This document shows, piece after piece, positions 5,786-45,740 of a stretch of 64,000 bases of DNA. The DNA lies in the NCBI RefSeq assembly GCF_021341785.1, contig NZ_JAJTTF010000008.1, positions 124,001 to 188,000 on the forward strand, read 5' to 3'. Below the pieces are notes generated by a model. It was given only the letters and a program-made list of their open reading frames with translations. It was not told the origin of the DNA and made no database searches. Origin of the DNA: Microbacterium sp. Au-Mic1. GTDB taxonomy: Bacteria > Actinomycetota > Actinomycetes > Actinomycetales > Microbacteriaceae. Position numbers and translations under genes: made by a program. The number at the start of each line of letters is the position of its first letter. Positions within the stretch are counted from its first letter, which is position 1.

Positions 5786-5925
5786 CTGCCGCGCGTGGGG
5801 AGTGGAGCAGCGCTCCGTCGGCGTGGGCGCAAGACGTTCGCGCCTGATCGCGGCATGCGATCTCGCGCCCGCCACCCACGACGCGCACCTGATTCAGAGC
5901 GTGACGACGAAGGAGAGACATCACG

Positions 5926-7317
5926 ATGATGCAAGGACGTGCAGCGGGAAAGACTCAGGGGCCGAACACGCCAGAGGGCGGGCCGTCAGTCGCCACGACG
6001 GGACGGATCAGCCGGCGCACGATCGTCCGAGGTGCGGTGTGGAGCGTCCCCGTGATCGCGACCGCCGCCGCGATGCCGCTGGCTGCGGCGTCGGTGGGTT
6101 CCCCGACTCTGAAGTTCATCAACGGCCCCTACAGCGTGGGCGGCTGCAGCGATCTGACCAACGTGACTCTCGCGGCGACGACGAACGGCACGACGCCTGC
6201 GGCGAGCACGACGGTGACCGTCGTCCTGCCGAGTGGTCTCACCTGGGCGGACGGGTTCACCGGCCCCCGCAGCTTCACGACGGACCCAAACGGCAAGGTG
6301 GTCCTGCCCGCGATCACAGCGAAGCCAAACGCGGCCTCCACCCCGTCTCTGGGTGCGTCGATGACCGGCGCGAACGCAACGGCGCCGGTGGTCGTGACCG
6401 CTCAGGTCGGCGCGAAGATCTACGACGTCGTCTCGACCGGGAACCCTCCCGCGACCGGGATCCCGCTCGGATCGGTGGCCGTCGGCCACGGAACCTTCCT
6501 CAACCCGGACGGCAGCCTCGTCTACTTCAACACCGTCGCGGGAAAGGCGATGCCGCTCGCGACCAACGTCACCAGCGGCACCACCATCCTCATCGGAGGA
6601 ACCCAGTCCTACTCCACGTATGTGTCGGGCGGGGTCGCCACCGTGCAGGACGTGGCCACGGGAACCACGATCACGGCCGCCGGCGTGCCGAACGGATCCA
6701 CCGCGGTCGGTCATGCGACCTTCCTCGCACCCAACGGAGACCTGTACTACTTCAACTCGGCCACGAACACGTCCGTCCTCGTCGCCTCCGGGGTGTCGAG
6801 CGCGAAGGTGTCGCTCTTCAACGGAACACAGCCCGTTCTGACCTTCGTCGCGGGCGGCGTTGCGAGGGCGTACAACGCCACCACCGGGAGCTACGTCACC
6901 GCGACCGGCGTCCCCGCCGGAACCACCGCCGTCGGCCATTCCACGTACCTCGCCCCGGACGGGCTGCTCTACTACTACCGGGCAGCCACCGGCACCGCGG
7001 TCGTGGTCAGTTCTGGCGTGTCCAGCGCGACAACGACGCTCTATGGCGGCACCGATCCGTACGTGACGTATGTGACCACCGGCATCCCCGCGGTCTACGG
7101 CGTCACCAACGGGACCTATCAGACCGCGACGGGCGTTCCCGCGAACTCGGTCGTCGTCGGACACGCGACCTACCTCGCACCGGACGGACGGTTGGTCTAC
7201 TACAACGCCGGGGCCAACGCGCCGATCGTCCTCGACACAGGTGTGACGAGCGCCGTCGTGCACCTCTACGGCGGCACCGATCCGATCGCGACCTACACGC
7301 ACAACCTGGTCTGTTGA
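5926..7317 (+). CDS. Tat-exported protein with 75-residue tandem repeats
   Basis: Unrecognised secreted protein, 463 residues. ATG at 5926 follows an AAGGAGA Shine-Dalgarno at 5910-5916. The N-terminus has a twin-arginine signature SRRTIVRG (R30, R31), a hydrophobic stretch and an Ala-rich probable cleavage region near 50-56. Residues 57-160 look like an Ig-type beta domain (LPSGLTWADGF, Thr/Val-rich). From residue 186 three complete and one partial repeat of exactly 75 residues follow (186-260, 261-335, 336-410, 411-463). Consensus landmarks are VGHxTxLxPDGxLxYYN, then GVSSA, LYGGTxP, ATGVP. There is no LPxTG or transmembrane anchor. The repeats look all-beta, as in a propeller or solenoid. 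Function unknown. Confidence 0.85.
   Translation: MMQGRAAGKTQGPNTPEGGPSVATTGRISRRTIVRGAVWSVPVIATAAAMPLAAASVGSPTLKFINGPYSVGGCSDLTNVTLAATTNGTTPAASTTVTVVLPSGLTWADGFTGPRSFTTDPNGKVVLPAITAKPNAASTPSLGASMTGANATAPVVVTAQVGAKIYDVVSTGNPPATGIPLGSVAVGHGTFLNPDGSLVYFNTVAGKAMPLATNVTSGTTILIGGTQSYSTYVSGGVATVQDVATGTTITAAGVPNGSTAVGHATFLAPNGDLYYFNSATNTSVLVASGVSSAKVSLFNGTQPVLTFVAGGVARAYNATTGSYVTATGVPAGTTAVGHSTYLAPDGLLYYYRAATGTAVVVSSGVSSATTTLYGGTDPYVTYVTTGIPAVYGVTNGTYQTATGVPANSVVVGHATYLAPDGRLVYYNAGANAPIVLDTGVTSAVVHLYGGTDPIATYTHNLVC
6481..7315 (+). repeat. 225-bp in-frame tandem repeats (3.7 copies)
   Basis: Repeat units start at 6481, 6706, 6931 and 7156, each exactly 225 bp apart with no insertion or deletion. The protein level is better conserved than the DNA level, where third positions differ, so the repeats are old and under protein-level selection rather than recently amplified. 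The last unit is cut at 53 residues by the stop codon. Confidence 0.92.
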
Positions 7318-7328
7318 CCCGGTGATGG

Positions 7329-7358
7329 AATGGCGGCGCGTGCATGTGCGCCGCCATT
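7329..7358 (+). terminator. Hairpin terminator after the repeat-protein gene
   Basis: Perfect 11-bp stem (7329-7339 with 7348-7358, arm AATGGCGGCGC) and an 8-nt loop, followed by TTC. It starts 12 bp after the stop codon. Confidence 0.65.
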
Positions 7359-7388
7359 TCCGTCGGCATCGCCCACCAGAATGGATCC

Positions 7389-8084
7389 ATGACCGCCGAC
7401 GCCGACGTCCTCGCCCGTGCCCTCACCTCCGATGCCCCGCTCACCTGGGTGCTGACCGGCGATTCGATCACGCACGGCCTGGTCCACACGCAGGGCGGTC
7501 GCACGTACGCGGAGCACCTGCACGAGATCGTCCGCGGCGAGCTCGGCCGGGTGCACGACGCGGTCATCGACACCGCGATCAGCGGATGGAGGGTGGTGCA
7601 GCTCCTCGACGACTTCGACCGCCGGGTCGCCACCTGGCGTCCGCAGGTGGTCACGGTCATGATCGGCACGAACGACTGCTCCGACGAGGGCGTGTTCCCC
7701 GTGATCACGCCCTCCGAGTTCGCGGCTTCGCTCACCGCGTTCGTCCGGCGCGTGCGCGAGCTCGGAGCGATCCCGGTGCTGCAGACGCCTCCCGCCGTGG
7801 ACGTGCCGAACGCTCCCGAGCGCGGCCGCATCGCGGAGTTCGCGCAGGCGGTGCGCGATGTCGCAGCAGCCGAGGGCACGATCCTCGTGGATCAGTTCGC
7901 CCGGTTCGCCACACTCGGCAACGGCGGGGTGCCGTGGGGACTGATGAACGACCCGTTCCACCCCAACGCCACCGGGCACGAGGCCCTCGCGCTCGAACTC
8001 GCCGAGGTGCTGGGTCTGGACCCGGCCGAGTCCCGCGTGCTGCCGAAGCTTCGCGCCGACGTCGCCGCAGGAAGGCTGAACTGA
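7389..8084 (+). CDS. SGNH/GDSL-family hydrolase
   Basis: Cytosolic esterase/acylhydrolase of 231 residues. Block I is GDSITHG with nucleophile S26, block III is GTND near 91-96, and block V is DPFHPNATGH with D188 and H191 completing the Ser-Asp-His triad. There is no signal peptide. The ATG at 7389 is chosen because it directly precedes the first conserved block by a normal distance. The gene stands alone between a terminator and the first palindromic repeat element. Substrate unknown; members deacylate lipids, carbohydrates or nucleosides. Confidence 0.85.
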   Translation: MTADADVLARALTSDAPLTWVLTGDSITHGLVHTQGGRTYAEHLHEIVRGELGRVHDAVIDTAISGWRVVQLLDDFDRRVATWRPQVVTVMIGTNDCSDEGVFPVITPSEFAASLTAFVRRVRELGAIPVLQTPPAVDVPNAPERGRIAEFAQAVRDVAAAEGTILVDQFARFATLGNGGVPWGLMNDPFHPNATGHEALALELAEVLGLDPAESRVLPKLRADVAAGRLN

Positions 8085-45548: not shown

Positions 45549-45650
45549 AGCCGAAGGCCTTCAGGTCGCACTTTCGGCGCTTCCCCCGACCAGGTGCAGC
45601 AGAACCTGCGACGTGAACGCGAGGATCCGGCGGACCGCCACTGCCGCCGG

Positions 45651-45740
45651 TGCCCCCGGCGCTCTCAGCGTGCGGCCGGCGCTCTCAGCGTGCCCCCGAC
45701 GCTCTCAGCGTGCCACCGGCGCTCTCAACCTGCGGCGCGT
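45651..45740. repeat. 20-bp tandem repeat running into the tetR 3' end
   Basis: A 20-bp unit (GCTCTCAGCGTGCGGCCGGC type) starts at 45661, 45681, 45701 and 45721, preceded by a half unit at 45651. The stop codon of the TetR-family gene (45725-45727) and its last residues are made from the fourth unit. Confidence 0.85.

Follow-up and report, generated by a model that had tools for sequence, protein, structure and literature searches.

The four 75-residue repeats encoded by a gene of Microbacterium sp. Au-Mic1 most likely close, on the evidence of predicted structures, into an eight-bladed beta-propeller ring. This gene was identified in a 64,000-nucleotide stretch of DNA (hereafter referred to as the window, meaning the whole stretch that was analysed), part of a 4,011,690-base genome assembled in 20 contigs. 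Its product may be an exported and soluble propeller, with a probable Ig-like N-terminal domain, a split eighth blade, a probable disulfide latch and a role as multivalent binder, and I give this composite description an even chance of holding. In the arrangement proposed here, each 75-residue unit would form two blades, and four units one ring, with the eighth blade split between two strands at the C-terminus and two strands from the segment preceding unit 1. A disulfide between Cys74 and Cys463 would latch this joint after export, and the near-symmetric ring would then act as a multivalent extracellular binder with several equivalent sites. How propeller rings gain, lose and fix their number of blades is a standing question in propeller evolution. 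The features of the gene are collected in Table 1, where the units follow the frame of the repeat profile, beginning 7 residues before that of the original prediction.

Table 1. Features of the propeller gene and its product (window coordinates).
Feature	Position	Strand	Details
Propeller protein gene	5926..7317	+	463 residues + stop
Plausible ribosome site, AAGGAG	5910-5915		identified by eye
Leader, residues 1-56, twin arginines R30-R31 at 6013-6018	5926..6093	+	RR invariant in six orthologs
N-terminal domain, residues 58-157, probably Ig-like	6097..6396	+	strands in the paralog model; Big_1 in some relatives
Cys74 codon, proposed partner of the C-terminal cysteine	6145..6147	+	invariant in 22 aligned N-terminal domains
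N-side closing segment, residues 158-178, two putative last-blade strands	6397..6459	+	resembles unit tails; paralog model
Unit 1, residues 179-253	6460..6684	+	
Unit 2, residues 254-328	6685..6909	+	
Unit 3, residues 329-403	6910..7134	+	
Unit 4, truncated, residues 404-462	7135..7311	+	
Cys463 codon, final residue	7312..7314	+	cysteine within 5 residues of the C-terminus in 59/61 entries

The original prediction placed the repeat starts at 6481, 6706, 6931 and 7156, and this exact 225-bp register, free of indels, was confirmed, as was the partial last unit, with the fourth copy ending at 7314 and the stop codon at 7315–7317. The repeats had also been called exact, which is true of their 75-residue length and not of their sequence, the units of the window gene being 45–53% identical in protein and 56–61% in DNA. 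In an autocorrelation over residues 151–463, identity is highest at lag 75 (47%), followed by lag 150 (42%), while the other eight lags among the top ten reach at most 18%; the lag-75 score is 2.4, and the best of 500 shuffles is below zero. The array is missing from the output of Tandem Repeats Finder on the window DNA, probably because the DNA copies are too diverged. Identity between units is lowest at third codon positions (43–57%), compared to 55–67% at first and 60–70% at second positions. The dN/dS ratio between the three full units is 0.36–0.58, and against four orthologs it is 0.04–0.09 for the repeat region and 0.09–0.33 for the N-terminal domain; together with the third-position divergence, these values therefore support selection on the protein sequence, as had been proposed. 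All five named ortholog records are from Microbacterium, two of them from M. azadirachtae, with 79–95% identity in the best segment.

The repeat was originally thought to be a new beta-propeller or a solenoid, and structure prediction was suggested as a check. Two AlphaFold2 models were generated, for the window protein and for a paralog, and both match beta-propellers, which together with structure comparison favours the first of these proposals and leaves the solenoid unsupported. The model of the window protein, obtained from a shallow alignment of six orthologs, has block pLDDT values of 71–93 across residues 181–460, with a poor leader and N-terminal domain, and 60–61 for residues 161–180, where the closing segment lies; the lower-ranked models drop to a mean pLDDT of 41. 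The paralog is 39–41% identical to the window protein, and was modeled from an alignment of 7 sequences, with a top model of mean pLDDT 81 and pTM 0.76, and the other four ranging from 75 down to 40. Every full unit of either model contains eight strands, interpreted here as two predicted blades. A Foldseek search of the PDB with the window model retrieved 285 chains at E ≤ 0.001; among the best 50 of these 285, the titles that name a fold are mainly those of WD40, Kelch or propeller proteins, many others name a complex only, and one names superoxide dismutase.

In VIA-align comparisons, the window model aligns to ODA16 (Z 18.0, 285 residues aligned, 3.8 Å), Rsa4 (17.4) and Fbw7 (17.2), all of which I take to be eight-bladed rings, to the designed protein Tako8 (Z 15.8, 276 aligned), eight-bladed according to its title, and to RCC1 (Z 15.4, 253 aligned), presumably a seven-bladed ring. 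The paralog matches RCC1 best (Z 14.1, 245 aligned) and not an eight-bladed ring, with ODA16 at 13.2 (268 aligned), a gap near one, and Photorhabdus lectins (PLL/PHL) at about 12. The structure scores are therefore split on the number of blades, the WD40 rings leading for the window protein and RCC1 for the paralog. Eight is preferred because four units of two blades each amount to eight, and the Tako8 alignment supports this. The fold itself, a beta-propeller with radial four-stranded blades in a ring, is fairly secure as predicted structures go.

I searched genomes with a profile of the unit, as had been suggested for detecting variation in repeat number. Relatives were found in at least 26 of 295 genomes of the genus, in 7 of 398 drawn from the family and in 3 of 396 drawn from the order; the source genome was alone among the 345 of the class draw, and the family of the single outlier gave 1 of 47 genomes. 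These relatives are almost all Microbacteriaceae, and none was found in the viral contigs, phages and plasmids searched. From 65 ORFs with units, four fragments (L084, 199 residues; L103, 370; L156, 137; L158, 180) were dropped, leaving 61 entries, among which four genes are doubled (L037/L105, L039/L100, L040/L099 and L041/L096); no doubled gene is included in the 45 clusters or in the 54 proteins compared by assembly below. Several genomes have two or three such genes side by side (L046, L051, L091, L158, L159), and several copies sit at contig ends, a hint that these are multi-copy, repeat-rich genes that break assemblies.

Within one protein, the mean identity of the unit cores ranges from 23% to 98% over the relatives. 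The highest value is that of L150, from a one-contig genome, in which the first 165 bases are 96–98% identical among the three full units, and 86–87% in the last. In L085, unit pairs are duplicated. Judging from these sequences, the rings are being rebuilt from one or two units. Re-amplification of rings from within, with single blades as the source, is described as frequent in Actinobacteria in an excerpt of an earlier study (PMC9218822). The present family shares such re-amplification with those propellers, but its unit is a pair of unequal blades, whereas the title of that study refers to single blades (PMC9218822); it also differs in that most members keep to multiples of four units.

The two ends of the repeat array are complementary. 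This was analysed in 51 entries, excluding nine orthologs of the window gene and L103. Residues −1 to −16 before unit 1 share 0.30–0.59 identity with the unit tails and positions −17 to −20 share 0.18–0.32, after which identity is 0.04–0.14, except for 0.22 at −36 and 0.18 at −42. For the last 16 residues, identity to the unit tails is 0.37, compared to 0.10 when shuffled, and the resemblance is significant singly at 0.05 in 36 of the 51 entries. On average the last unit lacks 16.6 residues. The few residues at its very end look like a terminal extension, and the N-side and C-side pieces thus sum to roughly one unit. The last blade of the paralog model consists of C-terminal strands 382–391 and 394–403, and N-side strands 104–111 and 116–120. 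What the truncated last unit lacks is similar in sequence to the ∼20 residues ahead of unit 1, so the N- and C-terminal sides would contribute two strands apiece to close the ring; as predicted from sequences and models, this is a 2-2 Velcro closure, and the truncation of the last unit is not accidental. According to a study on ring closure, natural propellers hardly ever use this type, RCC1-like domains being an exception, and it was the least stable in designed rings (PMC8458387).

A cysteine before unit 1 is accompanied by another within 5 residues of the C-terminus in 59 of the 61 entries (55 of 57 without doubled genes), and in 48 of the 61 these are the only two cysteines of the protein. 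The position of Cys74 is invariant among 22 aligned N-terminal domains. One entry of L046 (742) has neither cysteine, and its N-terminal domain is absent; L050, whose 5′ end is cut, has the upstream cysteine and not the terminal one, and the other ORF of L103 holds the in-frame N-terminal part and its cysteine. The N-terminal-domain cysteine is also present in a non-ring thioester protein of the source genome. The co-occurrence in 59 of 61 entries suggests a disulfide latch between Cys74 and Cys463 across the ring joint, which I consider likely from the sequences. If so, it would be a covalent seal on the closure type that was the least stable in designed rings (PMC8458387).

No convincing match to the window protein or its units was found in Pfam, NCBIfam or PHROGs, and single units gave scattered weak matches to these libraries, each confined to one member. 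A match to a known repeat family with assigned function had been named as grounds for refuting the original prediction; one model, Pfam WW_2, touches on this by passing its cut-off on the whole window protein (29.7 bits, cut-off 27), without being accepted as an assignment. The WW domain has two conserved tryptophans. The best stretch of this match spans 13 residues (194–206) of the 36-position model, tryptophan is absent from residues 158–463, and only one of 23 single units reached E 0.013; I read this match as the resemblance of a short hairpin and did not retain it. The Pfam WD40 and RCC1 repeat models gave no match in the window protein at E up to 10. A profile comparison of the family with RCC1 (2.5%), WD40 (1.4%), actinobacterial tachylectin-like proteins (0.8%) and FG-GAP gave 0.3–2.5%, against 99.9% between two halves of the family itself, from small alignments and in an insensitive test. 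Known propeller families mostly score 0.8–7.3% against each other (WD40 and RCC1, 3.0%), with 48.7% for tachylectin and FG-GAP, and since the comparison fails between most of them it excludes little. A search of the PDB by sequence found nothing significant, the insignificant profile matches including a 5-bladed lectin (E 0.39) and tachylectin-2 (E 1.4).

Compared with the named propellers, RCC1 differs in its presumed seven blades and in its sequence profile, with the caveat on sensitivity given above, and the N-terminal domain and terminal cysteine are, I assume, not part of it. RCC1-like propellers share with the present family the structural match to both models and, according to an excerpt, the 2-2 closure (PMC8458387). 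The WD40 rings ODA16, Rsa4 and Fbw7, together with Tako8, provide the best matches of the window protein (Z 15.8–18.0 over 276–285 residues); they differ in their Pfam and profile results, and in that the window repeat corresponds to a blade pair. Propeller lectins (Photorhabdus PLL/PHL, tachylectin-2) match the paralog and gave the insignificant profile matches, but presumably have other blade numbers, and the low tachylectin-like score is subject to the same insensitivity. I therefore describe the protein as a beta-propeller by prediction, assigned to no named propeller family. The literature searched on Microbacteriaceae propellers, ring closure, amplification and actinobacterial tachylectins contained no description of this family, and in the accessible part of one Microbacteriaceae paper, propellers are mentioned as phytases only. 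This exported family is without a name in any profile library searched, and the present work delimits it.

Export through the Tat pathway had been proposed from the leader. The motif is consistent with this, R30-R31 being invariant in six orthologs, and RR leaders being detected by regular expression in 56 of 61 relatives. Among the Pfam and NCBIfam models, however, none for a Tat or other signal sequence matched the window protein at E up to 10, and Tat export is thus suggested by the motif. The pattern misses at least one leader in which S-R-R can be seen by eye, that of L046 (742); of the five non-matches, two are cut at a contig end. The claimed lack of an anchor motif agrees with inspection of the C-terminus, which ends in NLVC and displays neither an LPXTG-type motif nor a membrane tail. 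The leader around SRRTIVKGAAWSVPVIA, with a tryptophan and a proline within its hydrophobic stretch, is nearly identical in ∼25 unrelated exported-looking proteins of the genus (L002–L036).

The N-terminal domain is predicted to form strands in the paralog model (block pLDDT 77–90), and Pfam Big_1 is identified in 2 of 22 relatives (best E 0.0013), without a match in the window protein; the model and these matches indicate that it is probably Ig-like. A related domain is present in L002 (G000:C7:92363–92776), 42% identical over residues 27–157, where it sits between a leader of the same type and a thioester domain (Pfam TED, E 1.6e-17). Thioester domains occur in adhesins. The sequences thereby suggest that this N-terminal module may serve adhesins.

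For the ring itself, near-identical units in some relatives (L150, mean 98%) imply equal sites, and the multivalent extracellular binder may be adhesin- or lectin-like, a suggestion that I would put a little short of even. The main functional rival is that the same ring binds and inhibits another secreted protein, in the manner of BLIP-II, which acts on beta-lactamase. In its favour, no structure matches the paralog better than RCC1-like domains, yet several equal sites are not what is expected of one tailored interface, the RCC1 repeat model did not match the window protein, and the profile comparison, in itself insensitive, gave 2.5%; I consider this inhibitor role unlikely. According to PMC9218822, BLIP-II is a secreted RCC1-like binder of soil bacteria.

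After clustering at 60% identity, 36 of 45 clusters hold four units, three hold 8, two hold 12 and one, that of L043, holds 16, so that 42 are multiples of four; the exceptions are two clusters with 3 units and one with 5. Some counts were set by hand, namely 4 for L046 (3301), including a weak unit, 3 for L093, after removal of a spurious weak match, and 12 for L103, summed over two ORFs (10 + 2); proteins of the matched genomes G242 and G272 are left out, and L157 gave no countable frame. The 12-unit gene of L103 (G319:C35) lies in two overlapping frames of 2 and 10 units, through a frameshift or sequencing error. Every one of the 22 proteins whose assemblies have 10 contigs or fewer has a multiple of four, as do 29 of the 32 from assemblies broken into more pieces. 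The exceptions, L044, L093 and L102, are in assemblies of 90–180 contigs and have a mean unit identity of 74–93%, and collapse or expansion of units during assembly is possible in these, although other drafts with equally similar units keep four (L092, L047).

Given unit identities from 23% to 98% and yet multiples of four in 42 of 45 clusters, a closure constraint could be tested with unit-number variants. It may be that two-blade units are re-amplified, while selection keeps their number at multiples of four, since every four would have to close an eight-bladed ring by the weak 2-2 closure, sealed by a disulfide between the N-terminal domain and the last residue; ring size in this family would then be quantised, a reading that I hold tentatively, giving it about one chance in three. 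If it is true, 8, 12 and 16 units would correspond to two, three and four rings in a chain, with the strands left by one ring closing the next. Alternatively, the count of four could reflect descent from a four-unit ancestor combined with gene conversion, without any structural need. The 36 clusters with four units agree with this, as gene conversion can equalise units while their number is unchanged, and the excess of multiples of four among the non-four clusters is modest (six of nine, binomial 0.010 vs 1/4). However, identical direct repeats should readily change in number through unequal crossing-over, and all 22 proteins from the less fragmented assemblies keep multiples of four, including those with near-identical units (L150, L098); I regard descent alone as improbable, at perhaps one chance in five. 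An open solenoid or elongated beta structure, which would tolerate any number of units, could accommodate the 8-, 12- and 16-unit members as well as the 3- and 5-unit clusters, but the models match closed propellers, the chain ends are complementary and 42 of 45 clusters are multiples of four, making it very unlikely.

The propeller gene is flanked by an MFS-like transporter frame upstream, named from its sequence, and a GDSL-type hydrolase gene downstream (7344–8084). Of five ortholog loci, three have the transporter and the hydrolase on either side, one of these with the paralog intervening; in L039 the transporter alone adjoins the ortholog, and in L040 neither was found within 13 kb. These neighbours give no clear functional hint. 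Many bacterial propellers are enzymes, and the adjacent hydrolase gene would suit a secreted enzyme on a propeller scaffold, but this is highly improbable, as no enzyme model matched the window protein, none convincingly matched its units, the near-identical units of relatives offer no place for a unique active site, and the hydrolase does not adjoin the ortholog in L039 and was not found in L040. In M. azadirachtae ARN176, the paralog gene lies directly upstream of the ortholog (L038:4532–5953), and in the window only 258 bases separate the transporter frame from the propeller gene. The strand opposite the propeller gene holds an open frame of 438 residues (5986–7302, minus strand), probably a by-product of GC-rich codon usage. 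Elsewhere in the window, a short array of 20-bp units is found at 45650–45727, with 3.9 copies and ∼87% matches.
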